Assembly (NCBI GenBank): GCA_012520995.1
Contig: JAAYNI010000019.1
Span: forward strand, 1-37,993
DNA length: 37,993 nt
Reading direction: 5' to 3'
From: Candidatus Rifleibacteriota bacterium
Lineage (GTDB): Bacteria > Muiribacteriota > Ozemobacteria > Ozemobacterales > Ozemobacteraceae
Part shown: positions 1,452-37,993 of the stretch, one piece after another
Numbering within the stretch: the first letter of the stretch is position 1
Layout: each line of letters begins with the position of its first letter
Notes under the pieces: generated by a model
What the model was told of the DNA's origin: nothing
The model's input: the letters and a program-made list of their open reading frames with translations, nothing else
Databases searched by the model: none
Position numbers and translations under genes: made by a program

Positions 1452-1645
1452 TTTTCAGTATTTGCGTGTAAAAACCATTCTTACTGGACCAGGAAGTTTT
1501 GTTTTTTTACAGAGTGCAGAAAAAAATGATCCAGCAATGGCTATTAAAGCTAATGATGCTAACATAAAGTCTCCCTTGAAAAAGGAACTAAAAACAAAAA
1601 CTTCTATAAAACTCTTTTGTATAAGTCATCAGCTAACTAGCGGTT

Positions 1646-1768
1646 TCAAAGTTTTACGGGAGACCTCATTCCCTTAGGCGGATAGTAGCAGAAATCTTTG
1701 TCTTGGGTAATAGAGACTATCTTGTTGTCAGATATGACAAGTGCCTGAAATAATTCGATGTCTATCAT
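1646..1768 (-). CDS. Possible 40-aa small protein downstream of the trk operon
   Basis: An ATG at 1768-1766 opens a 40-codon frame that ends with TGA at 1648-1646. It starts 5 bases after the stop of the membrane protein at 1774-2457, in the same direction. The product begins MIDIELFQALVISDNKIVSI and continues with TQDKDFCYYPPKGMRSPVKL. Composition is protein-like (hydrophobic N-half, then charged and aromatic residues), and the tight spacing suggests translational coupling. There is no obvious ribosome site beyond the preceding stop. No family is recognised. It could be chance, since it is short. The 190 bases between it and the rnd stop (1452-1645) show no feature I can name. Confidence 0.35.
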   Translation of the reverse strand: MIDIELFQALVISDNKIVSITQDKDFCYYPPKGMRSPVKL

Positions 1769-5741: not shown

Positions 5742-6258
5742 AGCGGTTAAAACTAGTGCTTTGTTGCAGCAACAACTTTCTTTTCTTTTTTATCCACAGA
5801 TTACACAGATGGCCACAGACGAGGACAAATCTCGCAAAAACAGCTTATGCTACTGCATAAATTCTGTTTTTGCTCATAGCCTCTGATTAAGGACAGATAC
5901 TGATAATCGACACAAAATGGTTCTAAGCATTTATTTCTAATTTATACTTTGTAAGTTTTAATTTAATTCAGCTCGCCACTCAGCACTGTTCGTTGCCTTT
6001 CTGCCCACTATCCAGTACCCGCAACCCACTGTGTGTTATAGTCTGCGTCATCTGCGGATTTTACAATTTTTGGCAGTTTTTGTTCTAGGTATTTGGGTTT
6101 TTGCTATCATTCCCTACACTCTACTCCCTAAACCCTGATTTTAAGCTATGCTAATAATCTCGTCAGTGTGTTCCGTGTGTTCTGTGGTTTAAAGAGGGTT
6201 TTGGAATTTTTTTGTGCTTTTAGTGTGTTTCGTGGTTGAAAATGGTTTTATAGTTCCT
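5742..6258. repeat. Gene-free, repeat-rich spacer
   Basis: No coding potential is seen. The stretch strings together short sequences that recur elsewhere: AGTGCTTTGTTGCAGC (5755-5770, again at 11434-11449); a block at 5848-5908 related to 20416-20474; CTGCGTCATCTGCGGAT (6044-6060, close to 11610-11626; an inverted relative near 5790); C-rich CCCTA-type sequence (6112-6137); and GTGTTCCGTGTGTTCTGTGG (6168-6187, identical at 11657-11676), with a degenerate third copy at about 6222-6240. It lies between convergent units, so it may serve only as a repeat landing site. Confidence 0.6.
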
Positions 6259-8388
6259 TTAAAAATTTACGTCTAAGCTAATCAGAAAGTCTTGGTTGGT
6301 GACGGGACTTCTGAAATCCCAAGTCAGTTCTTTGGTAATAAAGTCATAGTTCTTCTTCCATGTCTTTTCATAAGAGTAATGAGCGTTTATACTGACATCA
6401 TCCGAAAAGCGCTTGTTGAAGGTGCATTCCATAATCGGCTGTTTCTTCTTGGCCCAAGGTGTGGGCTGATTATCGTAATTTTTAAAGGAAAAATCCCGGA
6501 CTCCTGCAGATAAAAATACAGCTATAGTCGGGGCGGGAGAATAATCAGCTATTATGCGGAGGCTATTGTGTTTATAATCAGGATACCAAAGAAAAGTGTA
6601 TTCGCGGCACAAGAATCTGTCTTCAAGAGAGATATTGAGACTTTCAAGAATGTTGTAAGAAAACTTGGCACCGTATTCGTCTTCTCCGAAGTCCATTACC
6701 ATACCCGTAAGTGACATGTTTCCTATTCTTTTTCGGAAAATATTCTCAAACGTAAAATAGAGCTTGTCCGAGAGGCGAGCTTCATAGATTCCGGAATACT
6801 CGTATTTATCGTGAGACAGTTTTTCAAAATTTTCTTCATCGCAAATATAAAGCGAAGAAACAGTGAATGAATGCTTCGCTGAGGGTCTGTAGACAACTTC
6901 GCCGAATAGGCTCCATATATGGTAACCCTGAATATTGTCATTTTTGTAGCGTCTGTTTTCGCTGTCTCCTTCAAAAGTGCAATAAAACATTTCTGTAATA
7001 GGCAGTGAGTAAGCTAATTGGAAAGAATTGTTGAAATAGCTGTCTCTGTAAAGGGCTGGTTCAGGGTTATCGCTGATAAAGGCTGTCGCGTAGTTGGAAA
7101 TATCAAGAACAGCCTGATTCCCGGCAAATGTTCTGGTGTTTTCAAGATACAGATTATGTTGGCTGTGATCCAAGTTTTTGAGATTTTTATAAGAGGTTAT
7201 ATCGCCTGAATATTCAATATGTGACGATGAGTTTTCCTTAAAGGTGTTTTTTGTTGCCTTAAATATGAGCTGATCAAAATCGGTAATTGAAGTTCTGTCG
7301 TATCTTCTGTTTGCTATCCCTGCTGAAGCAGAGTAGGTGCTTTCCGAGGATTCCTTTATATAAGTTGCTTTTACCAGGTTGTTTTTGAAGTTTTTGTAAC
7401 TTCTGCTTGGGTAATCTGTTCTCTGAAAATCATCGCTCAGAACAAAATAAGAGTTGTTGCCGACTTTTTTTTGTAAAGCCAAAGTTGTGAAATGCTCCAA
7501 TGTTTTTTCATATTTTTCTCTTGCCTGAAAATCTTCTTTAAATATTAAAATAGTTTCAGGATTTAAATCCCATTCAAGTGAAAGTTTCAGTTTGCCGAAT
7601 TCATTTTTTTTCAGTGTTTTTTCGCTTTTAAAAGGCGGTATAAGGCCTTGGATATTTTCTGTTTCATCATTTTTTGCCAACAGAAGCGAAAAGTCACCCG
7701 TAACTCTGAGTTTTTCCAGGTTTGTAAGCTTTTCATTTGGTGCAGGCAGACTTGTTTTTTCTTGCTCAAGTTTCTCAAGTAACCTGTCTATTTGTGTTCC
7801 CAACTCAGCAAAATAAGAATCTGTTTCACTCTGCTTGTCGCCTTCGCTTTTGTCAGGAGTTGTTTCATGTTTTTCAGAAGAAGCTTCTTTCTCTTTTCTA
7901 TTGTTTGCAAGGGACTTTTTTGAAGCTTTTTGTATTTTTTCCTCTTCTGCTTTTCCTTTGATTTCATGGTAATAAAAATTCTGAAGTTCGACATAAGCGC
8001 TTTTGGCTGTGGAAAATGCAGTGAAAATCTCTGCTTGATGTATGGGGTCTGCTTCTGCGGAAGATGTGTATAGAGCCTCTAAATTAGAATATCTGCTGTT
8101 TGCTAACTGTATTTTTTGTTCAACTTTTGAGACTATGTCCGAGATTTTTTTCTTATCTTTTTCCTTTAGAGCTGTTTTGAGTTTTTCGTCTAAGGTTTTC
8201 AGCTCTTTAAGGGTTCTTTTTAAAAAGGTTTCTTGTCTGCCGAAAGCAGAAATTGTTGCTCTGGAGAGTGGGGACAAAGCCTGTGCTTGGCAAGGTGAGC
8301 AAAATAAAAAAAAGAAACTGAGGGCTATCAGATTGAGGTTGAAAAATATTTTGACTGTTTCTGTATTTTTGTTTTTGCTGATATTCAT
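6259..8388 (-). CDS. Exported protein with N-terminal helical region and C-terminal outer-membrane beta-barrel-like region
   Basis: 709 aa, no family recognised. A signal peptide (hydrophobic 15-30, cleavage probably after QAQA near residue 37) is followed by a helical, Lys/Glu-rich region (about 45-170) and a charged low-complexity linker (170-200). From about 230 to the end the sequence is a series of alternating polar/hydrophobic strands rich in Tyr, Phe and Asn. It finishes in FLISLDVNF, with a terminal Phe as in barrel proteins recognised by BamA. I infer an outer-membrane barrel with a periplasmic helical domain; porin-like transport or surface anchoring are both possible. It is the second gene of a pair, 21 bases after its partner, and has no clear ribosome site, so it is probably coupled to it. 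Confidence 0.7.
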   Translation of the reverse strand: MNISKNKNTETVKIFFNLNLIALSFFFLFCSPCQAQALSPLSRATISAFGRQETFLKRTLKELKTLDEKLKTALKEKDKKKISDIVSKVEQKIQLANSRYSNLEALYTSSAEADPIHQAEIFTAFSTAKSAYVELQNFYYHEIKGKAEEEKIQKASKKSLANNRKEKEASSEKHETTPDKSEGDKQSETDSYFAELGTQIDRLLEKLEQEKTSLPAPNEKLTNLEKLRVTGDFSLLLAKNDETENIQGLIPPFKSEKTLKKNEFGKLKLSLEWDLNPETILIFKEDFQAREKYEKTLEHFTTLALQKKVGNNSYFVLSDDFQRTDYPSRSYKNFKNNLVKATYIKESSESTYSASAGIANRRYDRTSITDFDQLIFKATKNTFKENSSSHIEYSGDITSYKNLKNLDHSQHNLYLENTRTFAGNQAVLDISNYATAFISDNPEPALYRDSYFNNSFQLAYSLPITEMFYCTFEGDSENRRYKNDNIQGYHIWSLFGEVVYRPSAKHSFTVSSLYICDEENFEKLSHDKYEYSGIYEARLSDKLYFTFENIFRKRIGNMSLTGMVMDFGEDEYGAKFSYNILESLNISLEDRFLCREYTFLWYPDYKHNSLRIIADYSPAPTIAVFLSAGVRDFSFKNYDNQPTPWAKKKQPIMECTFNKRFSDDVSINAHYSYEKTWKKNYDFITKELTWDFRSPVTNQDFLISLDVNF

Positions 8389-9406: not shown

Positions 9407-9442
9407 TGCTTCTGAATAAATGATAAGGACTTGATAAAACAA

Positions 9443-11431
9443 ATGAGAAGACTAATAGCCTTTTTGACAGCTATTTTGATGATTTTGTTCTTTTTGCCGC
9501 AATTAGAAGCCAAGACAGGATGGCCTCTGAAGATACCGGTATCTTTCAGTTCTTCTTTCGGAGAGTTCCGAGGAATGAGGTTTCATGCGGGAGTAGATTT
9601 CAGAACACAGCAAAAGAACGGTATTCCGGTATATGCCATAGCAGACGGATATATCTCAAGAATAGGAGTCAGCTACCGAAATTACGGTTATGTTCTATAT
9701 TTGACTCATCCAGAGCTTGGCATTAAAAGTGTTTATGCCCACTTGCAGGAGTTCTCGGAGCCCATGAAGTCCCATGTTGAAGCTAAGTTGAAGAAAATGA
9801 AAGCAAGGCATGGTCTTAGCGAGTTTTTTGGGCCAGATTCTTTTCCTGTAAAGAAAGGGCAGCAAATTGCTCTTTCAGGTGAAAGCGGTTCAGGGCCTCC
9901 ACATCTGCATTTTGAGTTGAGGAACATGAAGGATGAACCTGTGGCTCCAGCTCTTTACGGTTATCGCGAAACAGACAAGATATGGCCAAAAATGTCTAAG
10001 ATATATTTGGTTCCTTTGTCTTATGGAAGCGTGATCGACGGAAGCTTCATGCCGGCCTCTTTTTGGCTATCAATGAAAACCAAAGAATCCTATTCATTGG
10101 ATTATGCTCCTTCTCTTTTGGGGAAAGTAGGTATTCAAGCTGGAATCTATGATTATAATAATTTTGGCGGTGTCTTCGGAGTTGAAGATCTGGAATTGAA
10201 AATTAACGGCAAAACATCTTTCAAAAGCCAATTTCATAGATATCCATATAATAAAGACTATCAGTGTCCTATGGTTTATGATTACTTTAATTCGCAAAAT
10301 CGCAAACTGGGATATGCTTATATGCTTTATAAATTGCCTTGGGAAACCTTGCCTTTCTCGGATGGCTGGGCAGGCTGGAGCGGTGTGTTCGATGAAAAGG
10401 CCTTTTCCGGAGATTCAAGTAGAGCCTCATTTGAGGTTACTGCTCATGATTTTGGCAGAAATGCGGTTAAATTAAACGGAAAATTCAGGCACTATAAAGG
10501 AACTTTCAATGCTCATATTACAGACGCAGAACTCGATGCTTATTCCTTTGGAGAACTCTTTCATAATTTTTATAGCTTGATATCAGTCGGAAGAGTTGGA
10601 AAAAAGGTTAAACAGCAGACTATCAGAACAGGGCACGTTGTTTGTAAAGACTCCAAAGGCCGAGAGTCTCAAATACCTTGCATTCTTTTTACCAACAAAG
10701 CAGAATTGGCCTTTCCTGTAGAAGAATCTTGGGCTGATGGAGCATGGCTTTTGAACGGCAAAATGGTTTTATCGCCTTCGGAATATATTCCAGAAAATGG
10801 AAAGACAGTTTCTTTCGAAAATGGCTTGGCGGAGCTCAAGTTTAACAGAAATACCTTGGAATTCCCTATTTTTGCTTCTATGAAGTCTGATAAAGCTTCA
10901 ATGCCTTCTTATTCACAAGAGGGATTCGGAACTCTTAAGGCTTTCAGCCCGGTTTGGGATTTTTTCCCGGGCAACATTGTTTTCAGCAGAGATGTTAAAG
11001 TTTCTGTAAAAGCCGATTCTTATGCGGGCGATCGCAAAAAACTGTCGCTTTACAGCTTTGATGACAAAGGAAATGTAATCTGTGCCGGAGGCAGTTTCGA
11101 GGGTGATTTCTTAACTCTTGGAACCAGAACCGGAGGACGTTATGTAATAATGGAAGACTTGGTTCCCCCAGAAATTAAATATCATAGATATTTTAAACAT
11201 TATCAGTTGGGGCATTGTTATTCATTTAAGGTCACAGACTTTGGCAGCGGAGCAGACTTGCTTTCTGCGGAAGCATTTTCTGGCAATAAAAAGCTGGATG
11301 TTTATTCAGACCCAGACAAAAATGAAGTCTATATTATGAGACCCTCTTTGAAAAAGCCGTTTGAAATGACTTTGACTGTGAAAGATAACGCAGGAAATAT
11401 AGCAACAGCGACAAAAAGCGTCACACAGTAA
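9443..11431 (+). CDS. Exported M23 (LytM-like) metallopeptidase with large C-terminal region
   Basis: Zinc endopeptidase expected to cut peptidoglycan cross-links in the periplasm. A signal peptide (residues 1-23) is followed by the M23 domain. Counting from the ATG at 9443, the zinc ligands are H48 and D52 (HAGVD) and H156 of the HLH motif (PHLHFE, H154/H156), with H100 of YAHL as the further catalytic His, so the enzyme looks active. A charged insertion of about 30 residues (106-135) separates YAHL from VKKG. The remaining ~480 residues look like beta-sandwich modules, perhaps Ig-like, and may bind the wall or the envelope. A TTG at 9431 is an alternative start; the AAGGA at 9425-9429 is too close to the TTG and rather far from the ATG, so the choice is uncertain. 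Confidence 0.88.
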   Translation: MRRLIAFLTAILMILFFLPQLEAKTGWPLKIPVSFSSSFGEFRGMRFHAGVDFRTQQKNGIPVYAIADGYISRIGVSYRNYGYVLYLTHPELGIKSVYAHLQEFSEPMKSHVEAKLKKMKARHGLSEFFGPDSFPVKKGQQIALSGESGSGPPHLHFELRNMKDEPVAPALYGYRETDKIWPKMSKIYLVPLSYGSVIDGSFMPASFWLSMKTKESYSLDYAPSLLGKVGIQAGIYDYNNFGGVFGVEDLELKINGKTSFKSQFHRYPYNKDYQCPMVYDYFNSQNRKLGYAYMLYKLPWETLPFSDGWAGWSGVFDEKAFSGDSSRASFEVTAHDFGRNAVKLNGKFRHYKGTFNAHITDAELDAYSFGELFHNFYSLISVGRVGKKVKQQTIRTGHVVCKDSKGRESQIPCILFTNKAELAFPVEESWADGAWLLNGKMVLSPSEYIPENGKTVSFENGLAELKFNRNTLEFPIFASMKSDKASMPSYSQEGFGTLKAFSPVWDFFPGNIVFSRDVKVSVKADSYAGDRKKLSLYSFDDKGNVICAGGSFEGDFLTLGTRTGGRYVIMEDLVPPEIKYHRYFKHYQLGHCYSFKVTDFGSGADLLSAEAFSGNKKLDVYSDPDKNEVYIMRPSLKKPFEMTLTVKDNAGNIATATKSVTQ

Positions 11432-11720
11432 CAAGTGCTTTGTTGCAGCTAAAACTTCCTTTTAACAGACATCCGGCTCTACGATAAATCATCGTTGGCA
11501 GGCACTAAGATCGCACGGTGACGAGTGGCGAAAAGTCAAAGGGAGTGGGGCGTAGGGTGTAGGGAGTAGTGGAATTGTTTAGACTCAACTTCTAAAACTA
11601 ATAATTTCTTTATCTGCGTAATCTGCGGATAGAAAGGTTTTTGGAGTTTGTTCTGTGTGTTCCGTGTGTTCTGTGGTTTAAAAGGTATTTTTGTCCTTTC
11701 TGCTCCCTACGCCCTAACCC
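11432..11720. repeat. Repeat-rich spacer bounded by inverted G-rich/C-rich blocks
   Basis: Non-coding, between the convergent M23 gene and flhB. It holds AGTGCTTTGTTGCAGC (11434-11449, as at 5755), a small ACGAT/ATCGT hairpin near 11480, a G-rich block on the plus strand (11541-11572), TCTGCGTAATCTGCGGAT (11609-11626), GTGTTCCGTGTGTTCTGTGG (11657-11676, as at 6168) and the complementary C-rich block (11705-11728) that runs into flhB. The two outer blocks are near-identical in opposite orientation, so the middle looks like an inverted-repeat-bounded unit. Confidence 0.6.
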
Positions 11721-12884
11721 CTATTCCCTGGTTTTGTTGGTGTAATAGACTTGTGCGAGAATAGCCGCTACGGCACTGTAGAGGTCTTCTGGTATGACAT
11801 CGCCTGCTTCCATTGTTTTATACATTTGTCTTGCCAGAGGTTTATTCTCTAGTATTGGAATGTTATGTTCTTTGGCTATTTCCCTGATTTTTTCAGCCAA
11901 GTGATCGGCTCCTAGGGCTACCACGGTAGGAGCCGTTTCGCCGCCGAATTCATATTTTATGGCTACAGCTATGTGAGTCGGGTTTGTGATAATTACCGTT
12001 GCTTGGGGCACTTCTTCCAGTTGCCGTTTGCTGGAGACAGCTCTTTGTTTATCTCTGATTTTCTGTTTGACATAGGGGTCGCCTTCTTGTTGTTTAAATT
12101 CCTCTTTGACTTCTTGTTTGGACATTTTCAGATTCTCTTCATATCGCCATTTTTGGAAGCCCCAGTCGAGGAGGGCAATTGCCAATAGAATTGCCAATAT
12201 TTTGACTCCCATGGTGAAAACTATATCTAGCAGAGCTGTCATGCCTTGAGCTGGTGATACTTTGAGAATTCCCACAAAAAAAGGAAAATGCTCTTTAAAC
12301 GTGTTGTAGGGAATAATAGCTATAGCTATGACCTTTAGAAATGATTTTACAAGTTCTGCAGCCATTTTCCAAGAAAAGATGTTTCTTATGCCTGAGACAG
12401 GATTGAATCTTTCAATGTCAGGAGTCAGAGGTTTCAGAGTAAAGAGAAATCCGACCTGAATCAGATTTGATAGAGCGGAGGCTACAAATATTGTTGTGCA
12501 GATTGGAAACAGCAGTTTCAACATCAATAACAAAAATTGGTTCATTCCCAGCAAAATATCATCATATGTTGCTTCTTTCAGCAGCAGGTCTGTAAATGAA
12601 AATTGCATGTAGCTGGCGCAATCGCCATATATTGTTGCTCCTTGATTACGTAAAAACAGCAAGCCTGCAAGCAATATTATGACGGATGAAAGATCTTGAG
12701 ATTTTGCGACATTGCCTTTTTCTCTGGCCTCTCTGCGGCGTTTTTCAGTGGCGGGCTCTGTCTTGTCACCTGCAAAAAGCTGAAGGTCGAACGGTCTTTC
12801 GGCAAATGAAAGCTTGTTGGGCAAAGTGTTGTCTTCTAAGCTCAGGATTTCTTGTTCTAATAGAAGAGAAAAGTGGAAGCTCAT
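11721..12884 (-). CDS. flhB: Flagellar export switch protein FlhB
   Basis: Inner-membrane component of the flagellar type III export apparatus that switches substrate class from rod/hook to filament. 387 aa. After an unusual extension of about 30 residues comes the typical DLQLFAGDKTEPAT start, four membrane helices and the cytoplasmic domain with the self-cleaving N301-P-T-H site. The start at 12884 overlaps the fliR stop (ATGA), which supports it, although no Shine-Dalgarno is visible. The last codons and TAG stop (11721-11729) fall inside a G-rich repeat (see findings). It is the last gene of the fliP-Q-R-flhB operon. Confidence 0.93.
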   Translation of the reverse strand: MSFHFSLLLEQEILSLEDNTLPNKLSFAERPFDLQLFAGDKTEPATEKRRREAREKGNVAKSQDLSSVIILLAGLLFLRNQGATIYGDCASYMQFSFTDLLLKEATYDDILLGMNQFLLLMLKLLFPICTTIFVASALSNLIQVGFLFTLKPLTPDIERFNPVSGIRNIFSWKMAAELVKSFLKVIAIAIIPYNTFKEHFPFFVGILKVSPAQGMTALLDIVFTMGVKILAILLAIALLDWGFQKWRYEENLKMSKQEVKEEFKQQEGDPYVKQKIRDKQRAVSSKRQLEEVPQATVIITNPTHIAVAIKYEFGGETAPTVVALGADHLAEKIREIAKEHNIPILENKPLARQMYKTMEAGDVIPEDLYSAVAAILAQVYYTNKTRE

Positions 12885-13660
12885 GGGGAGATCAACCTTG
12901 AAATCTCGAAAATTTTGTTGAGCAATATCTCCAGAAGATCTCTGGAGGCGTCACCCAAAATGTGGATGAAGAGCACTATCATCAAAAGGCCGGCCAGTAT
13001 TTTGATTGCAAATCCAAGCTGGAATATGTTGATTTTGGGCACTGTTCTGGCGATTATGCCGAGAGCCACGTCGCTTATAAGGGTAACGGCTATTATAGGC
13101 ATGGCAACTTGAAGACCTGATACAAAGAGAACCTTTGTGGATTCCATTATTTCCTTTATTGCTAATATGTTTAAGTCAGCTCCGGCGGGCGGTATTTTTA
13201 AAAAGCTGTCAAAGAAAGCTTTTAGAATTATCAAATGCCCGTTGATGCAAAGAAATATAAGCATTCCCAAAAGTCTGAAAGAGTCGGCTACTATTCCAAG
13301 ACTTTGTCCTGATATGGGGTCTGCGACTTGCACAAAGGAAAATCCGATTTGCATGCCAATCATGTTGCCGCCCATTCTCAGAGCTGACTCCGCCAGAATA
13401 GCTACAAAGCCTATTGCAAATCCGAATGAGAGTTCTTTGATGACCAAAATAGCATAGCCCCCTGCTGAAAGAGCTGGGAATGTGTGAGTCTGTAAGAGGG
13501 CTGGCAACACCAGCAAGGCGCAAAGCGCGGAAAGTCCGGCTTTCACTCTGGCTGAAATCTGGTTGCCTGAAAAAACAGGTGTGTATAAGAAAAATCCGCT
13601 GAATCTGACAGTTGCTGCCAAGAAAAGACCAAATGCGTTAAGAAAATAAGCTTGAGTCAT
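12881..13660 (-). CDS. fliR: Flagellar export gate protein FliR
   Basis: Membrane component of the export gate (FliP5-FliQ4-FliR1). 259 aa, the usual length, with six hydrophobic segments and the typical MGGNMIGMQIGFSFVQVADP stretch in the middle. The start codon immediately follows the fliQ stop and the end overlaps flhB by four bases. Confidence 0.92.
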   Translation of the reverse strand: MTQAYFLNAFGLFLAATVRFSGFFLYTPVFSGNQISARVKAGLSALCALLVLPALLQTHTFPALSAGGYAILVIKELSFGFAIGFVAILAESALRMGGNMIGMQIGFSFVQVADPISGQSLGIVADSFRLLGMLIFLCINGHLIILKAFFDSFLKIPPAGADLNILAIKEIMESTKVLFVSGLQVAMPIIAVTLISDVALGIIARTVPKINIFQLGFAIKILAGLLMIVLFIHILGDASRDLLEILLNKIFEISRLISP

Positions 13661-13930
13661 TTAGAAGGCGTAGTTTTCAAGTCCGCCTAAAAGGCGTGTG
13701 GCGAAACCCATCAAAAGATTCAGCATCCAAGGTGCAAGCAGAATCAAAGTGATGGCGGTTGCAAAAAGTTTGGGAATAAAGCTTAAGCTTTGTTCCTGAA
13801 TTGATGTGGCAGTTTGAATTATACTGATGGCTATCCCAAGAAGCATTCCGACAAGAAGCACTGGAGCGGAAAGTGTGAGACACATCAGAAAGGTGTCTTT
13901 GAAGAGTTCTATGAATACCATTTCGTCCAT
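13661..13930 (-). CDS. fliQ: Flagellar export gate protein FliQ
   Basis: 89-aa two-helix membrane protein of the export gate. It contains the family stretch GMLLGIAISIIQTATSIQEQ followed by SLSFIPKLFATAITLI. A G-rich ribosome site overlaps the end of fliP, four bases upstream; the stop directly abuts fliR. Confidence 0.92.
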   Translation of the reverse strand: MDEMVFIELFKDTFLMCLTLSAPVLLVGMLLGIAISIIQTATSIQEQSLSFIPKLFATAITLILLAPWMLNLLMGFATRLLGGLENYAF

Positions 13931-13934
13931 TCAG

Positions 13935-14783
13935 TTATCCCCCAAAGCTTGTCACCAAAGATTTTATGACAAGAGTCCATCCATCTACCAGCACAAAAAG
14001 AAGAATTTTGAATGGCAAAGCTATCATAGCGGGCGGTAGCATCATCATGCCCATGGACATTAAAATGCTGGCTACTACCATATCTATTACGAGAAACGGC
14101 AGATAAATGACTACGCCCATTTGAAAAGCTGTTTTTAGTTCACTGGTTATAAAAGCAGGTATTAAAGCTAAAGTGCTTAAGTCGTTTCGTGTCTTTGGCT
14201 TTTCACCTTTTTGCATGCCTGCGAAAAGAAAAAGATCTGATTCTCTCGCATGGGAAAACATGAAGTTTCTTATCGGGACAATGCCGCGTCTATAGGCTTC
14301 GACATGGTCTATCTCGTTGGCTACATAAGGACGAACGGCATTTTGATAAACGTCGGAAATCACAGGCGACATTATAAAAAAGGTCATGAAAAGAGCTAAG
14401 CCTATAAGTATCTGGTTGCTCGGTTCTTGCTGAGTGCCCAAGGCTCTTCTCACAAATCCTAATACTATGATTATTCTGGTAAAACTGGTGAGCATTATCA
14501 GAATCGATGGGGCGAGGCTAAGAATTGTGAGTATGATCAGGATTTGAAGTCCTGTGCCCAACTGTTGTCGTTCACTTCCAGGGTTTACGTTTATATTGAG
14601 TTCAGGGAGTTCAGGAAAAGCTAAGGTGAAATCTTCGGCTATTGTTGTTTCAGATGTTGTTGCGGTTGCCTGCCTTTCAGTTTGTGCTGACAAGGGCATG
14701 GGGTAAAACAGAATTAAGCAGAGAAAGGCAACTGCCGCGAGTAATCTGCATGGAAAAACTGTCTGTTGAAAGCTTTGGGGCAT
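13935..14783 (-). CDS. fliP: Flagellar export gate protein FliP
   Basis: Main export-gate membrane protein. The start at 14783 is chosen because AGGA (14792-14795) lies 8 bases upstream; an upstream TTG (14819) would add 12 residues without a ribosome site. The product has a cleavable-type signal (ending PLSAQ), an extracytoplasmic segment of about 50 residues, then the conserved helices with LTSFTRIIIVLGFVRRALGT and SMGMMMLPPAMIALPFKILL. First gene of the fliPQR-flhB operon, divergent from flhA. Confidence 0.93.
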   Translation of the reverse strand: MPQSFQQTVFPCRLLAAVAFLCLILFYPMPLSAQTERQATATTSETTIAEDFTLAFPELPELNINVNPGSERQQLGTGLQILIILTILSLAPSILIMLTSFTRIIIVLGFVRRALGTQQEPSNQILIGLALFMTFFIMSPVISDVYQNAVRPYVANEIDHVEAYRRGIVPIRNFMFSHARESDLFLFAGMQKGEKPKTRNDLSTLALIPAFITSELKTAFQMGVVIYLPFLVIDMVVASILMSMGMMMLPPAMIALPFKILLFVLVDGWTLVIKSLVTSFGG

Positions 14784-14804
14784 AGGTTGGTGTCCTGTGT
14801 GATG

Positions 14805-14817
14805 GTGCACTGTGCAC
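14805..14817. promoter_or_regulatory. Candidate operator palindrome in the fliP/flhA divergent region
   Basis: Two copies of the self-complementary hexamer GTGCAC separated by one base form a 13-bp dyad just downstream of the predicted fliP transcription start. It could be a repressor site or a short RNA hairpin. No regulator in the window is an obvious match. Confidence 0.35.
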
Positions 14818-14824
14818 AATAGAA

Positions 14825-14853
14825 ACTATACACCCTGAAAGAAAGAAAAACAA
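14825..14853 (-). promoter_or_regulatory. Promoter for fliPQR-flhB
   Basis: On the minus strand: TTGTTT (14853-14848), 17-base spacer, TATAGT (14830-14825). The predicted start near 14818 lies just before the GTGCACTGTGCAC palindrome (14805-14817), leaving a leader of about 35 bases before fliP. Confidence 0.5.
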
Positions 14854-14889
14854 GGCATATAAAAAAGTGAAAATAAAAACTTTATTTGA

Positions 14890-14919
14890 TTGAAAAGACC
14901 CGGATATTTGTACTATACT
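14890..14919 (+). promoter_or_regulatory. sigma-70-type promoter for flhA-flhG-flhF
   Basis: TTGAAA (14890-14895), 18-base spacer, TATACT (14914-14919). A transcript would start near 14926, about 30 bases before flhA. No sigma-28 or sigma-54 signature is seen here. Confidence 0.55.
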
Positions 14920-14954
14920 TCAGCCAAGCTTGAGAGAAAAAGGAGGGGCAATCT

Positions 14955-17057
14955 ATGGCAAATGCGGCAAAAACTGCCTCTGGCAGTGCTTTTGGCGGAT
15001 TGTCTTTGGATTGGCTTGCAAAGAGTCAAGGCCTGCTTTTTGCTGTAGCTCTGGTTGCGGTTATCATAATGATGATAGTCCCTTTGCCCTCGCCGCTTGT
15101 AGATCTCATGTTGACACTGAACATAGCTCTGTCAGTTATTATATTGCTTGTTTCTCTATTCAATAACGATGTCTTGAGCTTTTCCTCTTTTCCTACAATT
15201 CTGATGGTGACTACCATTTTCAGACTGGCTTTGAACGTAAGCTCTACCAGAATCATCCTATCTGGAAAAGGTTCTACTCTACAGCTTGTCAAATCTTTTG
15301 GAAGCTTCGTTGTTGGCGGCAACTATATTGTAGGGTTCGTTGTTTTCCTTATATTGGTTCTGATTCAATTTTTGGTTATAACCAAAGGTGCTGAGCGTAT
15401 TGGCGAGGTGACGGCAAGATTTACTCTTGATGCTATGCCTATTAAAGGAATGGCCATAGATGCTGACTTGAATGCTGGCGCAATAACTCAGGAAGAGGCT
15501 ACGCAAAGAAGACTTGAGCTTTCTCGTGAAGCGGACTTTTACGGCTCAATGGACGGTGCGACCAAGTTTGTCAAAAACGATACTATCGCAGGCATTATAA
15601 TCACTGTTATTAATCTGCTCGGCGGTATAGCTATAGGCGTTATATTCCGAGGAGAAGGCGTTATGGACGCTCTTGCCGCTTATGCTTTATTTACTGTGGG
15701 CAGCGGTCTGTGCACCCAGCTTCCTTCTTTGATGATTTCAACTGCTACAGGTATAGTTGTTACTCGCAGCTCATCGGACAGCAGCCTTGGCCAGGAAATA
15801 AGCATGCAGCTTTTTTCAAACGCAAAAGTAATAGGCATAACAGCAGGACTTTTGATTTTTCTTGGCACTATTCCGGGCTTGCCTAAGCTCAGTTTTTTTA
15901 CTTTAGGTATAATGCTCGCGATTCTAGCTTATGTGCTGGCTAAACATAATGAATTGGCTGTTGTTGCCGAGGCTGAGGCGGCCGCGGCGGCTGTGGAGCA
16001 AGCGCCGAAGGGCCCCGAAGATGTATCTTCATTGCTGGCTGTGGAAAATCTTGAGTTGGAAATAGGCTATAACTTGATTCCCCTGGTTGATACAGAGCAG
16101 GGCGGCGACCTTCTGAATCGCATCACTTTAATTCGCAGGCAAATAGCTATTGATTTGGGACTGGTTGTGCCCTCTATCAGAATAAGAGACAATATACAAT
16201 TGCAGCCTTCTACATACGTTTTTAAAATAAAAGGAAGTGAATATGCGCATTACGAAATTATGCCGGATCATTACCTTGCGATGCTCACAGGTGAACCTTC
16301 ACCTGATGTTAAAGGCATAGAAGTTAAAGAGCCTGCTTTTGGTTTGCCCGCTTTTTGGATAACACCCGAAATGAGAGAAAAAGCTGAGATAGCAGGCTAC
16401 GCTGTGGTTGATCCTTCCACGGTTATAGCTACACATCTGACGGAACTGATAAAACGCAATGCACACGAGATACTGGGGCGCAAGGAACTGCAACAGCTTC
16501 TGGACTCTGCAAGAGAAACTGACCCGCTTCTTGTGGATGAAGTGGTGCCCAAAATTATAAGCAATGCGACTCTTTTAAAAGTTCTCCAAAACTTGCTTTA
16601 TGAAAATGTTTCTGTGAAATATTTGACTGTAGTGTTGGATGCTTTCTCTGGCTGTCACGGCATAACAGATACTAATTTGCTGACAGAAATTGCACGTCAG
16701 GCACTTTCAAGACATATTTGTAAAGATTTGCTTGAAGATGATGGCGTTTTGAGAGTAATATCAATTGATCCTCAGCTGGAACAAAGTCTTAGCTCTGCTC
16801 TGCAAAATGTGGACGGAGTTATGCACCTGGCTATTGATCCTGCCAGCGCAAAGCTTCTGATGGAAAAGATGACGGCATCTATCGAGAAAGCTGTAAGAGA
16901 AGGCCACTCGCCGATTATACTTTGCAGTTCGGCTTTGCGTCTTAGCATAAAGCAGCTTGCCAATCGTGTAGCCCCTCATTTGGCTGTTCTTTCTTATCAG
17001 GAGATTCCAGCAAATGTGAACTTTGAAACTATAGGCATTATAAGTTTGAGAGAATAG
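14955..17057 (+). CDS. flhA: Flagellar export gate protein FlhA
   Basis: 700-aa core of the flagellar export apparatus that forms the nonameric ring receiving chaperone-substrate complexes. The N-terminal half has about eight membrane helices and the family stretch DGATKFVKNDTIAGIIIT; the C-terminal cytoplasmic domain starts near residue 350 and ends TIGIISLRE. A strong AAGGAGG precedes the ATG. First gene of the divergent block flhA-(MinD-like)-flhG-flhF. Ten bases after the stop, a heptamer repeat (AACTGAT) begins. Confidence 0.95.
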   Translation: MANAAKTASGSAFGGLSLDWLAKSQGLLFAVALVAVIIMMIVPLPSPLVDLMLTLNIALSVIILLVSLFNNDVLSFSSFPTILMVTTIFRLALNVSSTRIILSGKGSTLQLVKSFGSFVVGGNYIVGFVVFLILVLIQFLVITKGAERIGEVTARFTLDAMPIKGMAIDADLNAGAITQEEATQRRLELSREADFYGSMDGATKFVKNDTIAGIIITVINLLGGIAIGVIFRGEGVMDALAAYALFTVGSGLCTQLPSLMISTATGIVVTRSSSDSSLGQEISMQLFSNAKVIGITAGLLIFLGTIPGLPKLSFFTLGIMLAILAYVLAKHNELAVVAEAEAAAAAVEQAPKGPEDVSSLLAVENLELEIGYNLIPLVDTEQGGDLLNRITLIRRQIAIDLGLVVPSIRIRDNIQLQPSTYVFKIKGSEYAHYEIMPDHYLAMLTGEPSPDVKGIEVKEPAFGLPAFWITPEMREKAEIAGYAVVDPSTVIATHLTELIKRNAHEILGRKELQQLLDSARETDPLLVDEVVPKIISNATLLKVLQNLLYENVSVKYLTVVLDAFSGCHGITDTNLLTEIARQALSRHICKDLLEDDGVLRVISIDPQLEQSLSSALQNVDGVMHLAIDPASAKLLMEKMTASIEKAVREGHSPIILCSSALRLSIKQLANRVAPHLAVLSYQEIPANVNFETIGIISLRE

Positions 17058-27703: not shown

Positions 27704-29497
27704 ATGCATAATTTGTTCAGCGAAACTCACTCTACAAAAGCGAATATGCCTCAAAGCGTCTTTTTTGCTTCCACTCATAAAAGCGAAAATAAGGCAAAAA
27801 ATTCTTTTTCGGCGAACTTTTCTGAAATCTTCAACAAAGAAATGATGAAAAATGCTGAATCGGAAAAAAACGCATCAATGAGAGGCAAGTTCAGTAAGCC
27901 TGTTGAAATTATTTTCGATAAGGCTGACTCAGCTTTTCAAAAATCTGCAAACTTCAATCTGAAAGATAAGCCGCTTCTCGAAAGAGGCGCTCAGAAGAAG
28001 TTGTTAGAGAAACCTTATCTCAAGAGTAATGAAAAACCTGAACTTCAGCAAAATGAAGCAAAAGCTTCCGATAAGCTCTCAAGGTCTGAAAGTCAGGATA
28101 ATAGCGAAGTTTCTGCGGGAAATGTTGCGGCAAATAAAAGTCAAGAGCCTGCGAAGGGCTTTGAAAGTGGCAATTGCCAAGAAGTTTCCGAAACATCTGA
28201 CAATACAGCTCCCAAAGCCTTTGAATCGGCTAAAACTCTTGAAGATTCCGAGTCTGAAACAGATAAGTTGCTCAAAGCGGAAGAACTGTTTCTAACAAGC
28301 GAAGTGCCTGTTGAAATTGAACCGGCTATTCAAGAAAATTGGTTGAATTCAGAAGAAACCGCAGTTGCTGCGGAAGGTAAAACTCTTGAATTCGTCAGTG
28401 ATAAAGTTGTCTTGGAAGACATGTCATCTGTGTCTGTAGTTCAAGATAAAGCCGTGGAATTGGAAATCATTGCCAAAAGGGACAGTCTTTCTGAAACAAA
28501 AGAACTTTCAGAAGCTGACTATGGCACCGAACTTTTCGAGACTCTCTCAAATGAAGAACCCAAAGAAACAATGCTTGATAGCGAAAATGTCTTTGAATCT
28601 CTGCAAATGCTTGAAAAGAGTGAGAAAACAGAAAAAACAGAAAAAACAGAAAAAACAGAAAAAACAGACAAATCCGAACAAAGTGAAAAACCTGCTTTTG
28701 CCGAAGCTTTTCAGTTTGAATCTGAGGACAAAGCAATAGAAGGCGAATTGAAGCTTTCGGATAAATCTGTTTATGAGCATCAGTCTGATATGGATTCTTC
28801 TGTAGAGCTCGAAAACTTGGAAGCGGAACAAGCGACAAATCTTGCTCAAGCCTCATCTTTGGAGACTTCAGAAAATTCTGAGGAGAAAATGTCTTTAAAG
28901 AAGCTTGGAGAAAAAGATTTCATGCCTGAAGTTGCGGAGCATAAAAAGCCTGTAAAGGCTTCGTTTGAAGAGCAAAATACATCAAAAGAAGGTTTCGCCA
29001 AAAACTTCTCTTCGAGGGAAACTCCTTCAGATGCGAAGGTCGAGCCTGCAAAGACTGTATTCAAAAACGAACTCTACGAAATGATCGAGAAAGCCGGTTT
29101 TGTAAAAAATATAAATGGCAAACAAACTATAGAGATGGAGCTCAAAGAAAGCAAGCTCGGAAAACTCTCTTTGAAAATGGTTTCAGAAGAGGGAACAGTT
29201 TCGGCGAGGCTGGTAGTTGAAAACAACATAGCCAGAGCCAGATTGGAGAGTGCGACTGCAGAAATCAGGGAAACCCTTGCGAACCAAGGTGTAGACCTGA
29301 AGGAAATTTTTGTGGACGTGCGAGCCGGAGATTCCGATAGCTATTCAGGAGAAGCTTTCAATAAAAGTGAAAATTCTTCTGCGGGAAGAGCGGTTTCTCA
29401 CGAAAAGGCCGAATCTGCAAGACTGGGTAGCTACGCAATATCCGAAAGTTTGCGCAGAAAGGCTTTGCACATAAAACAGATAGATGTGACGGCGTAA
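27704..29497 (+). CDS. fliK: Flagellar hook-length control protein FliK
   Basis: Secreted molecular ruler that stops hook growth and triggers the FlhB substrate switch. 597 aa. The N-terminal ~450 residues are low-complexity and rich in Glu, Ser, Lys and Ala, as expected of a ruler. They include a five-fold EKT tandem (28622-28666). The conserved Flg_hook C-terminal domain is at about 450-550 (MELKESKLGKLSLKMVSEEG, then ARLVVENNIARARLE and ETLANQGVDLKEIFVDV). A full AAGGAGGTGA ribosome site precedes the ATG. First gene downstream of the sigma-28-type promoter. Confidence 0.85.
   Translation: MHNLFSETHSTKANMPQSVFFASTHKSENKAKNSFSANFSEIFNKEMMKNAESEKNASMRGKFSKPVEIIFDKADSAFQKSANFNLKDKPLLERGAQKKLLEKPYLKSNEKPELQQNEAKASDKLSRSESQDNSEVSAGNVAANKSQEPAKGFESGNCQEVSETSDNTAPKAFESAKTLEDSESETDKLLKAEELFLTSEVPVEIEPAIQENWLNSEETAVAAEGKTLEFVSDKVVLEDMSSVSVVQDKAVELEIIAKRDSLSETKELSEADYGTELFETLSNEEPKETMLDSENVFESLQMLEKSEKTEKTEKTEKTEKTDKSEQSEKPAFAEAFQFESEDKAIEGELKLSDKSVYEHQSDMDSSVELENLEAEQATNLAQASSLETSENSEEKMSLKKLGEKDFMPEVAEHKKPVKASFEEQNTSKEGFAKNFSSRETPSDAKVEPAKTVFKNELYEMIEKAGFVKNINGKQTIEMELKESKLGKLSLKMVSEEGTVSARLVVENNIARARLESATAEIRETLANQGVDLKEIFVDVRAGDSDSYSGEAFNKSENSSAGRAVSHEKAESARLGSYAISESLRRKALHIKQIDVTA
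28622..28666 (+). repeat. 9-bp tandem repeat inside fliK
   Basis: Five in-frame 9-bp units (GAGAAAACA, then four GAAAAAACA) encode EKT repeats in the ruler region. Gain or loss of units would change FliK by three residues each and could adjust hook length. Confidence 0.85.
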
Positions 29498-30616: not shown

Positions 30617-33352
30617 ATGCTAAGATCATTATTTACTGGAGTCACAGGACTCAAACAGTTTCAAACCAAGATGGATGTGGTGTCTAACAATATCGCCAAC
30701 GTAGATACTACTGGCTTTAAACGCGGCAGAGCAATGTTTGCGGATCTCTTCTCTGAGACAATTCGTCACGGTCAGCAGTCTTTTGGGGACTTTGGCAGCC
30801 AGAATCCGATGCAGATCGGTCTTGGCACCAAGATCGCTTCGATAGACACCATAATGACTCAAGGGAAAATCGAAAATACCGGCCGGGACAATGACATAGC
30901 CATTGAAGGCGATGGATTCTTCATGGTTAAGGGCTTCGATTCCAATATATATTACACAAGAGACGGCAATCTGAACGTTTCCGACAGTCACGATCTGATT
31001 ATGACTAACACAGGAAGCAAAATTCAGGGCTGGTCTGCTATGCAGGATCCCAGAACAGGCAATCTGGAAATGAGGGAAACAGATGTTGTGCCTTATGACA
31101 TCAACATAGCCCGCTATCTCAAAAAACATGCTCATCAGACAAATGAGATTACCTATTCTTGTAATCTTCAATCCAGTTCCCCTGACAGAGATATAGAGTT
31201 TGGAGTGGAAACCCTGACATTTATTGACAGTGCCGATCAAAAGCAGGATTTACGCTTCAAATTCAAAAAACTGGATGCGGAAAACTGGCTCTGGACTGCT
31301 CATGATGATACAGAAGGAAACGTTGCGACAGGAACATTGAAGTGCGATGAAGATGGCACTGTTCTGGAAAGCACAGTAGAACCTGCCGGTTTGACTTCAA
31401 CTCTTTCAGCTCCATATTTCACTTACGACCCTGACGGAAACCCTCAGCCTGGTTCAGCTACCATGCCTATTAACAAAGTTACAAACCAAGGCAATGGCTT
31501 GAGCTCAGGTGTTACAGTTTCTGGAAACTTGGTCAAAGATGAAACAGTCGAGATTATTTTCGACGGCGGAGATCCGACCAGAGCTGTATCTTACAGAGTT
31601 GTGGGTTCAGAGCGCGGTTTCATACACTCAGGCACATTGGGCGGCACCCAAGCAAGATTTGCGGGTGATCCGGTTACCTTTGGACTTTCATGGACTCCCG
31701 CAGCTAATACTTCATTTACAGTTACAGACAGTCAGTTCGCTGTTCCGAGAACGGCTACTGTCAGCTTCGTTGGCGGCACTACTTACACAGCATCTGAGAT
31801 AGTCGATACAATAAATAATGCTCTTGCGAATGACGGTGTCAGAGCCACTGCTTATTTTGATGCTGTCACGTCACAGTTGCAAATTGTCAGCAATGAGATA
31901 GGTGAAAGACAGAACTTGACAATAGGCGGCGCTATAGGCAACTTTGCAGACCTCGGGCTTACAGCTGGCACTCAGGTCGGGACAGGCGCAGGCAAGGCGG
32001 AAGTATACAGTGACCTTGCCATGTCTGCAGCTTTCGCGGCCGACAATGTTGACGTGACAGCTGATGTTCAGCTGGTTGTCACAGACAGGCATGGCAGAGC
32101 GGCCACTATTGAGTTTCCCGACATAGTTGCAGGTGTGAATCAGATTTACTCCAGAGGAGCTATTCTGGCTGAAATCAACTCTCAGCTTGTAGCCAACAAT
32201 GTCAGCGCCAATGCGGCCTTTCTTGATACAGACAATGACGGAAGTCCAGATCAGCTTATGATCTCCAGCAATGTTCCAGGTTCAGGCGAAAGAGTTATAC
32301 TGACTGGAACCAACATCGACCAGCTTGGCTTGGCTGGCGGAAGTTATAGCGGTACTGCGGCTGTCAGTCACTTCGAATACGGAGGTTTGACCTTTGACCT
32401 CACCGAGGGAACTAATCATTGGCTTCCCAACGAGTCCTTATCCTTTGTTACAACGGCGGAAAAGGGTGCCGCTAGCTCGGTGAATATTTACGTGCCTCAG
32501 CCGGGAACCAAGAAAATGGCCTTTGCGACTAATGTTAACAACCACGAATACAAAATCGAAGGAGCTGTCAGCAAAGGTGCTCAGCATAAAACCAATATAG
32601 TTATTTATGACTCCCTTGGCACCCCTCATGGCATGGTCACCACTTGGGAACATACTGACAAAACTAAGCATGAGTGGACATACAAAATGTCATACTCTCC
32701 CGATGATCCTGAAATCCTGGCTTGGCTCAAAGACCCTGCTAACAATATACTGGATCCCGAAAGTCCTACAGATGAAGAACTTGAGCGAGCCAATGATTCT
32801 TTGATCACAGATCGCACAGGCAAGATGTATTTCCAAAACGACGGAAAGATAGATGTTGCCCGTTCTTATATTCCGTCATTCAGCTTGCAGCCGAGAGGCA
32901 GCAATCCTCTCAAAATTGATCTGGCCACTGACCTTATAACTCAATTCGATTCTCAGTTCACTACTAAGGCTGAAAATCAGGATGGATATGCTATGGGTCT
33001 TCTTCAGAAGATTTACTTCGAAGAAGACGGAGTGGTTCGCGGGGTCTATTCTAATGGACAAAAGCAGCCTATAGCACAGCTTGCCATAGCTACTTTTAAC
33101 AATCCGGAAGGTTTGGAAAAGAAAGGCAATAATCTCTATGCCTTTGCTCCGGGTTCAGGTCTGGCAGTTGTTTCAAGAGCAGGAGTAGGGCTTGCTGGCA
33201 AAGTAGTGGCTAACTCGCTTGAAATGAGCAATGTAGATCTTTCTCAGGAGTTCACCGATATGATTGTTACTCAAAGAGCTTTCCAAGCAAACTCCAGAGT
33301 AATAACTACATCAGATGAACTTTTGCAGGAATTGGTAAACCTTAAACGCTGA
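30617..33352 (+). CDS. flgE: Flagellar hook protein FlgE (unusually long)
   Basis: Subunit of the flagellar hook. The ATG at 30617 has AGGG nine bases upstream. The D0 N-terminus LRSLFTGVTGLKQFQTKMDV, then VSNNIANVDTTGFKRGRAMF, and the C-terminus LEMSNVDLSQEFTDMIVTQR, then AFQANSRVITTSDELLQ are canonical. At 911 aa it is about twice the usual 400-500 aa. The extra mass lies in the outer domains (about residues 200-650) and includes two stretches resembling the flagellin/hook IN domain (near residues 375-470 and 480-600). Exported through the FlhA/FlhB gate encoded in this window. A terminator-like hairpin follows the stop. Confidence 0.93.
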   Translation: MLRSLFTGVTGLKQFQTKMDVVSNNIANVDTTGFKRGRAMFADLFSETIRHGQQSFGDFGSQNPMQIGLGTKIASIDTIMTQGKIENTGRDNDIAIEGDGFFMVKGFDSNIYYTRDGNLNVSDSHDLIMTNTGSKIQGWSAMQDPRTGNLEMRETDVVPYDINIARYLKKHAHQTNEITYSCNLQSSSPDRDIEFGVETLTFIDSADQKQDLRFKFKKLDAENWLWTAHDDTEGNVATGTLKCDEDGTVLESTVEPAGLTSTLSAPYFTYDPDGNPQPGSATMPINKVTNQGNGLSSGVTVSGNLVKDETVEIIFDGGDPTRAVSYRVVGSERGFIHSGTLGGTQARFAGDPVTFGLSWTPAANTSFTVTDSQFAVPRTATVSFVGGTTYTASEIVDTINNALANDGVRATAYFDAVTSQLQIVSNEIGERQNLTIGGAIGNFADLGLTAGTQVGTGAGKAEVYSDLAMSAAFAADNVDVTADVQLVVTDRHGRAATIEFPDIVAGVNQIYSRGAILAEINSQLVANNVSANAAFLDTDNDGSPDQLMISSNVPGSGERVILTGTNIDQLGLAGGSYSGTAAVSHFEYGGLTFDLTEGTNHWLPNESLSFVTTAEKGAASSVNIYVPQPGTKKMAFATNVNNHEYKIEGAVSKGAQHKTNIVIYDSLGTPHGMVTTWEHTDKTKHEWTYKMSYSPDDPEILAWLKDPANNILDPESPTDEELERANDSLITDRTGKMYFQNDGKIDVARSYIPSFSLQPRGSNPLKIDLATDLITQFDSQFTTKAENQDGYAMGLLQKIYFEEDGVVRGVYSNGQKQPIAQLAIATFNNPEGLEKKGNNLYAFAPGSGLAVVSRAGVGLAGKVVANSLEMSNVDLSQEFTDMIVTQRAFQANSRVITTSDELLQELVNLKR

Positions 33353-33383
33353 TTTCAAGTAAATAAAGGCTAAAAGTTAACAG

Positions 33384-33433
33384 ACTGGCGTTTTTGTCCG
33401 ATAATAATAAGGACTGAAACGCCAGTTATTTTA
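33384..33433 (+). terminator. Terminator-like hairpin after flgE
   Basis: ACTGGCGTTT (33384-33393) pairs perfectly with AAACGCCAGT (33417-33426), with an inner GTCC/GGAC stem, followed by TATTTTAT. It lies 31 bases after the flgE stop and probably lowers expression of fliL and the genes after it. Confidence 0.7.
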
Positions 33434-33526
33434 TAAAACTTGGAGGAGTATATCAAGGAAAGAGCCTAAAATTCGGTGAAGCCTCATTGACTTGCCTTAT
33501 CAGCTCGTGTTACCTTGAGTCTAATT

Positions 33527-33994
33527 ATGTCTTTCAAAACGAAAATATTACTCTTTTTAGTATTGCTGGTCTTAGCTTTTCTGGGAACTACATTTGTCGT
33601 GTATAGGATTTCCTCTAAAGCAGCTGCCAAGCCGGCCTCGGAGTTGCCTGCTGAGACGGTGAACTCCTATGAGAGCCAAAAAGACAAAATCAGCCGATTT
33701 AATCTTGGCGATTTTATGGCGACTGCAAGAGATCAGGAATTGCACTATATCAAGATTCAGATTGAAGTAGCTTATGTTGGCGACCTTGAGTCGGTTCTTG
33801 AAGAGCACGAAGCTGAATTGCGCGACAAAGTTACTAATCACCTCATGAAGCTGACCATTCAAAGAGCAAAAGAAGACTATATAGACGGTTTTTTGCACAA
33901 AGATCTTGAAAGAGAACTCAATAAAATATTGGGAACTTCCGCTTCTGAAAGCAGGATCGTAAGAGTTGTAATTCCTTCGTTCTTGGTTAACTGA
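33527..33994 (+). CDS. fliL: Flagellar basal-body protein FliL
   Basis: Single-pass inner-membrane protein beside the stators that supports torque. 155 aa: a membrane helix at about 7-26, a short linker, and a periplasmic domain ending with the typical RVVIPSFLVN. The ATG at 33527 has no good ribosome site, and a TTG at 33515 would add four residues. A strong GGAGGAG at 33442-33448 is too far upstream to serve it. Because a hairpin terminator separates it from flgE, it may have its own promoter (possibly TTGACT near 33489). Confidence 0.88.
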   Translation: MSFKTKILLFLVLLVLAFLGTTFVVYRISSKAAAKPASELPAETVNSYESQKDKISRFNLGDFMATARDQELHYIKIQIEVAYVGDLESVLEEHEAELRDKVTNHLMKLTIQRAKEDYIDGFLHKDLERELNKILGTSASESRIVRVVIPSFLVN

Positions 33995-34031
33995 CAAAGC
34001 TTTTATCTCGAAAGGCGGAGCTGGACAGCAG

Positions 34032-36500: not shown

Positions 36501-36527
36501 GCTCAGCGGCGAAGTTGCACAAAAGAC

Positions 36528-36899
36528 ATGCCTCAGACAAAGAAAACCATACTTATAGTTGACGATGCGGCTTTTATGCGTATGATGCTGAAAGACATAT
36601 TGGTCAAAAACGGCTATGATGTCATAGGCGAAGCCAAAACTGGCAAAGAAGCTATTGAGCTGTATCAAAAACTTAAGCCCGATCTTACTACCATGGATAT
36701 AACTATGCCGGAAATGAACGGCATAGAAGCTGTAAAAGCCATAATGAAGCTGGATGCTGGAGCAAGAATCATTATGTGCAGCGCTATGGGGCAGCAAGCA
36801 ATGGTTATTGACGCTATTCAGGCGGGAGCCAAAGACTTTATTGTCAAACCTTTCCAGCAAATGAGAGTTATAGAAGCCGTACATAAGGCTTTAAGATAA
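36528..36899 (+). CDS. cheY: Chemotaxis response regulator CheY
   Basis: Single receiver domain, 123 aa. Acid pocket D12/D13, phosphorylation site D57, S85 at the Thr/Ser switch position and K107 are all in place. Its position between fliY and fliO is that of the Firmicutes/spirochaete fla/che operon CheY. It is expected to be phosphorylated by a CheA encoded elsewhere, to bind FliM, and to be switched off by FliY. The ribosome site is weak. Confidence 0.93.
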   Translation: MPQTKKTILIVDDAAFMRMMLKDILVKNGYDVIGEAKTGKEAIELYQKLKPDLTTMDITMPEMNGIEAVKAIMKLDAGARIIMCSAMGQQAMVIDAIQAGAKDFIVKPFQQMRVIEAVHKALR

Positions 36900-36910
36900 A
36901 GAGTTTTTTA

Positions 36911-37881: not shown

Positions 37882-37993
<112 letters not shown>

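Follow-up and report, generated by a model that had tools for sequence, protein, structure and literature searches.

A G-rich motif over the flhB stop codon is probably a copy of a dispersed, TAG-bearing heptamer repeat in a Rifleibacteriota genome

We find that the G-rich motif lying over the stop codon of flhB in a Candidatus Rifleibacteriota genome is probably (we put the probability at about 0.77) one copy of a G-rich heptamer repeat, modular in build and dispersed between genes, that supplies the gene with its stop, and that its capacity to form a quadruplex would be incidental. The motif lies in a contig that we call the window, meaning the whole 37,993-nt stretch of DNA that was analysed; it has 41% G+C and is contig 75 of the 101 that make up a 2.84-Mb draft genome, 96% complete. 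What looked like a single candidate RNA switch thereby becomes a member of a repeat family found across the genome.

The 3' end of flhB reads AAA ACC AGG GAA TAG, with the stop TAG at 11721-11723, and the minus strand from 11728 to 11705 reads GGG AATA GGGG TTA GGG CGTA GGG (GGGAATAGGGGTTAGGGCGTAGGG). A first-pass annotation of the window had described four G-runs of 3, 4, 3 and 3 bases with loops of 4, 3 and 4 bases spanning the last codons of flhB, its stop and the bases beyond. The minus-strand letters bear this out, with the motif covering two bases of AGG, the whole of GAA, the TAG and then 16 further bases. The window holds two four-run motifs (G3+, loops of 1-7), where 200 first-order Markov resamplings yield 0.06 on average, and the other intact one sits at 11541-11564 on the plus strand. 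Scored against a profile of the genome's other arrays, from which the window was left out, the full flhB array reaches 47.6. The features discussed here are collected in Table 1.

Table 1. Genes, G-rich arrays and accompanying modules, with positions in the window.
Feature	Position	Strand	Remarks
Exonuclease/HRDC gene (PF01612, PF00570)	204-1451	plus	ends in a degenerate array copy
Degenerate array copy GGGTGTGGGGCGTAGAGAGTAG	1423-1451	plus	holds the TAG (1449-1451) of gene 204-1451
Further degenerate array	6107-6135	minus	~120 nt beyond the stop of gene 6259-8388
M23 peptidase gene	9431-11431	plus	convergent with flhB; TTG start (ORF scorer prefers 9443)
Inverted partner array GGGAGTGGGGCGTAGGGTGTAGGGAGTAG	11541-11569	plus	109 nt past the M23 gene stop
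Stretch between outer ends of the inverted arrays, 188 nt	11541-11728		~135 nt separates the arrays
9-mer module TCTGCGTAATCTGCGGAT	11609-11633	plus	terminator-like stem and TTTTT tail, plus strand only
9-mer module (TGTTCTGTG)3	11649-11675	plus	between both arrays
Full flhB array GGGAATA GGGGTTA GGGCGTA GGGAGCAG	11700-11728	minus
Array core, four G-runs over the flhB stop	11705-11728	minus
flhB	11721-12884	minus	387 aa; PF01312 (Bac_export_2), 1.2e-122
flhA	14955-17057	plus	divergent from the fliP-flhB block here

Across the whole genome the pattern GGGN4GGGN4GGGN4GGG has 58 matches, spread over many contigs, against 1 match for the same pattern at period 6, 1 at period 8, and none in any of ten simulated genomes of equal size. 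These counts rule out a G-rich sequence arisen by chance, an explanation that also faces the excess of four-run motifs in the window and that we regard as having practically no probability. The 58 matches merge into 53 arrays, and their surroundings together with the window make up 349,739 analysed bases, in which genes were called by a hexamer ORF scorer and not by an annotation pipeline. A profile that tolerates decay finds 76 sites.

Within the arrays the order of the loops is fixed, with AGTA in first place, GTTA or CGTA in second and CGTA or TGTA in third. The position information amounts to 0.78 bits, while the maximum across 5000 within-array shuffles is 0.47, so that 0/5000 reach the observed value, and identical adjacent units number 5 of 106 against a random mean of 12.4. 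Given the conserved unit order and the shortage of identical neighbours, the arrays are dispersed copies; the same two observations rule out local slippage as their source. Most loops (127 of 159) end in TA ahead of the next G, so that a TAG recurs every 7 nt, and because 7 mod 3 = 1, successive TAGs step through all three reading frames. In 34 of the 53 arrays all three frames are closed at most 31 nt from the array start (two frames in 15, one frame in 4); three-frame closure occurs in 255 of 3352 intergenic 31-mers. The overlapped stops are TAG in 6/6 cases, against 45 of the 249 genes in the analysed stretches.

The arrays also sit in a characteristic position relative to genes. None of the 53 lies within a gene. 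Six touch a stop codon (one of them, L169, by a single base), in every case that of the upstream gene on the same strand and, as stated, always a TAG; the arrangement at flhB, which the first-pass annotation expected to recur if it mattered, does recur at other genes when stops are counted across the genome. Ten further arrays begin 0-14 nt past a stop, all on the sense strand. Among the 38 arrays with a same-strand upstream gene, the distance is negative for 6, 0-14 nt for 10 and up to 195 nt for the others, which puts 16/38 in the interval from -15 to +14 nt around the stop. Placing arrays uniformly within the same gaps and on a random strand (5000 draws) gives means of 0.85 overlaps and 1.56 arrays at 0-14 nt (P = 0.0004 and 0/5000, respectively). 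The observed counts exceed this null, and the stop overlaps are thus the margin of a broader accumulation of arrays around the ends of genes. Of the gaps between tandem genes, those with sense arrays alone number 21, those with antisense arrays alone 6 and those with both 1 (p=0.006), and the nearer neighbour is the 5' gene for 46 of 51 arrays. Counting both members of a pair, 23/52 arrays have an inverted partner to their 3' side and 1/52 to their 5' side, at a spacing of 105-461 nt. The sense bias and the peak at stops are greater than neutral random placement in gaps would give, and therefore selection probably acts, to some extent, on array orientation or position.

The decay-tolerant scan allows the stop overlap to be compared between copies that could and could not form a quadruplex. 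The 76 profile sites include 7 overlaps with a same-strand stop, 0 with an opposite-strand stop and 0 with a start codon, and the stop overlaps fall on 5 of 56 quadruplex-competent sites and on 2 of 20 non-competent ones: the overlap is independent of quadruplex competence, in small numbers. For five of the six strict-overlap genes, Pfam domains end 2-29 residues ahead of the protein end. The sixth, L170 (583 aa; L170:4010-5761), has no Pfam match; its last codons cross a 9-mer module and the array, and it then stops at an array TAG. The first-pass annotation had also counted flhB as the second gene of the window with a stop inside the G-rich repeat. This holds in a looser form: the TAG of gene 204-1451 does lie in a copy (by a profile built without the window), but that copy is decayed, with just two G-runs of at least three bases, contains no canonical quadruplex motif and is not quadruplex-competent.

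Several other repeat modules accompany the arrays. Five left modules abut the first G, namely the palindrome TTTTAAGCATAGCTTAAAATC and CCTTAAGGAAA, CCGCACTATA, GCTTCGCAGA and GGCGAAAACTCCAA; 35 of 53 arrays could be assigned to one of these types and 18, the flhB array included, could not, and the flhB junction AAAACCAGGG is, judged by eye, akin to the palindrome end AAAATCAGGG. Counted by eye, the palindrome occurs at 55 places with at most 2 mismatches, and, searched for regardless of arrays, 22 of the 30 palindrome loci taken have an adjoining array. The four GGG runs are intact in only 6 of these 22 palindrome-linked arrays, and in 16/22 a CACAGA 9-mer module stands on the far side of the palindrome. 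Consensus is 0.88 at G positions against 0.67 at loops in 19 copies, a sample biased by having been picked for at least two runs. The 9-mer CACAGATTACACAGAT, with 46 matches in this genome (one at 5795-5810) and 1 in 36 relatives, is a lineage-specific repeat that neighbours both the palindrome and the G arrays. A 12-mer assembly of the shared surroundings of the arrays gave short pieces only, the modules being degenerate. Right-flank module classes are loose patterns, and positions of the other modules come from stretches selected for G arrays; both were left out as evidence. Elsewhere in the window, a tandem 9-mer GAAAAAACA occupies 28613-28690 within gene 27704-29497, and a CAAG tetranucleotide is repeated 23.5 times at the window end (37900-37993). 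An Rfam search of the window returned a fluoride riboswitch only, away from the flhB array (1613-1682, minus strand, 35.4 bits at a cut-off of 34); this match lies downstream of gene 1774-2457 and points towards the 3' end of gene 204-1451, and no gene that it might control is apparent.

Now we consider the relatives and the position of flhB itself. In a set of 36 genomes, made up of this one plus 35 relatives, the four-fold GGGN4 pattern ranges from 0 to 302 matches. Two relatives resemble this genome: G019 has 11 arrays, 0 within genes and 1 over a stop, and G034 has 8, none within genes, with six inverted pairs (identified by eye), all convergent, among 100 of 302 places listed. In a third, G011, the 128 matches reflect a composition rich in G, 15 of the 25 arrays examined lying within genes, so that its count is uninformative about the repeat. 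We read the flhB loci of 28 relatives, one of which lacks the 3' end; two of the remaining 27 have 4 and 168 nt downstream. Of these 27 readable 3' ends, 0 carry a three-run array over the flhB stop or beyond it; the relatives searched all lie outside the genus. Named genomes supplied a further 80 FlhB loci, at most 43% identical, which were excluded from this 3' end comparison. In family relatives the FlhB tail stops a few residues past AQVY or AQVF; because the tail here ends in the same way, the length of FlhB is normal.

The gene order around flhB is altered. In 10/10 relatives' regions fliP, fliQ (named by place only), fliR and flhB lie on one strand, and in 8/10 flhA follows flhB directly on that strand; here, across 11431-14955, the fliP-fliQ-fliR-flhB block and flhA have opposite orientations, in contrast to those 8/10. 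Because flhA is divergent here, the 3' end of flhB appears to be a rearrangement junction absent from those 8 relatives; alternatively, misassembly at a repeat in this draft genome may account for it. A block at 30671-37639, found upstream of fliP in 8/10 relatives (one partly), lies here at the far contig end; its displacement implies at least a second rearrangement, or else a misjoined contig. A GGTGCACTGTGCAC-like palindrome stands ahead of flhA at 14805-14822, and a similar GGTGCACAATGCACC was seen by eye between flhB and flhA in G011, G004 and G017.

How, then, should the motif at the flhB stop be interpreted? The proposal of the first-pass annotation, that an RNA quadruplex there influences termination, the formation of 3' ends or the stability of the message, is unsupported by the analysis as a whole, and we consider it quite improbable. 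The motif does have a G4Hunter score of 1.79, and in a 63-nt fragment folded in ViennaRNA with quadruplexes allowed the quadruplex is preferred (-12.1 vs -7.4 kcal/mol). The closeness of the arrays to stops and their sense-strand bias would suit such a role as well, and heptamer DNAs of similar kind, (GGGAATC)n and (GGGGAYT)n, are described as forming quadruplexes in K+ in vitro (PMC4692102). However, the preference disappears with context: the 131-nt model gives -29.2 kcal/mol either way, and the minimum-energy folds of both the 131-nt and the 261-nt context contain no quadruplex. Against the proposal stand also the equal stop overlap in copies without four runs and the decay of the G-runs in most palindrome-linked copies. 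Furthermore, in the results cited here from PMC6974567, an RNA quadruplex behind the stop of hemL and of bswR left expression unchanged in E. coli and P. aeruginosa. A different RNA role would make the inverted arrays a long hairpin formed on read-through, protecting 3' ends or separating the flhB and M23 transcripts, with the quadruplex merely competing. As modelled RNA, the inverted arms of 11541-11728 pair at -54.6 kcal/mol, and folds that contain both arms reach -64.1 (flhB strand) and -88.4 (plus strand) kcal/mol without a quadruplex, so that by these models a hairpin would replace the flhB quadruplex once the inverted partner is included. The frequent 3'-side partner fits this role, as does a convergent arrangement reported in Xanthomonas too (PMC4692102). 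Still, the loop would be long (~135 nt) and 29/52 arrays have no 3'-side inverted partner; an intrinsic terminator (stem-loop and U-tract) was not found on the flhB strand, the sole terminator-like match being the plus-strand 9-mer module of Table 1, with 0.8 such matches expected from shuffles. We therefore see the hairpin role as unlikely.

It might also be that a transposase acting in trans mobilises a MITE- or REP-like element whose ends are the arrays, a reading that is compatible with a dispersed repeat supplying the flhB stop, and which we treat as possible if doubtful. It draws on the convergent geometry and intergenic dispersal of the arrays, on the several left modules that abut the same first G, on the lineage-specific modules, and on reports of small mobile repeats that carry stops in all frames (PMC2229807). 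It is weakened by the variable distance between inverted partners, because of which there is no fixed element length, and by the sequence at 11541/11728, where no target site duplication is visible by eye in this copy. In addition, the Y1 (IS200/IS605-like) transposase family PF01797, the only transposase family searched, has 0 matches in this 96%-complete genome, with control matches in 5 of 14 genomes; mobilisation by a RAYT is dismissed on this ground. A bolder proposal, which strikes us as rather improbable, is a portable gene-end cassette in which 9-mer module, palindrome, array and inverted partner together form a three-frame TAG trap and an RNA structure, selected on the sense strand after genes and especially at rearrangement junctions such as flhB/flhA. 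If it were true, the cassette would fold as hairpin or quadruplex depending on the extent of transcription.

Our preferred reading is the dispersed repeat that supplies the stop. The flhB motif would be a 5'-truncated copy, belonging to a repeat that prefers the sense strand just downstream of genes, often facing an inverted partner. With heptamers that are mostly GGGNNTA followed by G, a copy lying right at the 3' end of a gene would supply its stop; flhB ends on the TAG of the first unit. We infer that the copy reached flhB in the present lineage, with its broken flhB-flhA junction, and replaced an older gene end. Almost all units contain a TAG, so a gene that runs into the repeat usually stops there, and the position of the stop inside the repeat seems to be a side effect of the repeat itself and not a control switch based on a quadruplex. 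In other words, a heptamer that closes three frames can account for the stop overlap with no quadruplex function. Comparing stop overlap with and without intact G-runs is a contrast that can be used in any genome with such repeats.

Among known systems, the REP/BIME sequences with RAYT are alike in being extragenic, abundant, paired in inverse orientation and mosaic, as described in PMC2817692; unlike them, the array here is no palindrome with a GT(A/G)G head and is not self-complementary, and the palindrome module neighbouring the arrays is AT-rich, where the REP palindrome is GC-rich. The 155-bp Correia elements, RUP and CIR share the intergenic position and the stops in all frames, and Correia and RUP also the inverted ends, but, by their description in PMC2229807, they differ from the repeat here, which shows no constant length, no visible target duplication and G-rich heptamer ends. 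The TAACTGA repeats of Beggiatoaceae are intergenic heptamers too but are not G-rich, a comparison made by description only (PMC4679880).

The closest match is to the G-rich heptamer repeats described by Rehm et al. (2015; PMC4692102), with the units GGGAATC in Xanthomonas and GGGGAYT in Nostoc PCC 7120, which that paper places on the coding strand at most 50 bp from stops, stop-codon overlaps included. Just as in that account, the repeat here is a G3N4 sequence of period 7, dispersed and intergenic, lies closer to its 5' neighbour gene (a rule described for Xanthomonas), forms convergent inverted pairs (again Xanthomonas) and is rare between divergent genes. Quantitatively and in its build it differs. 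The unit here is GGGNNTA, with a TAG per unit, whereas the units given by Rehm et al. are GGGNATC or GGGGAYT; unit order here is fixed with differing neighbours, in contrast to one consensus unit in up to 26 units; in tandem gaps the sense strand is preferred here, against sense/antisense shares of 30%/35% in Xcc and 18%/34% in Nostoc; and the arrays here are joined to several other repeat modules, unlike the repeats as that paper describes them (PMC4692102). The flhB repeat belongs with the known G-rich heptamer repeats, and its own traits are the TAG-bearing unit, the fixed order and the sense bias. G3N4 repeats of period 7 recur in distant groups, with lineage-specific units and the same rule of placement.
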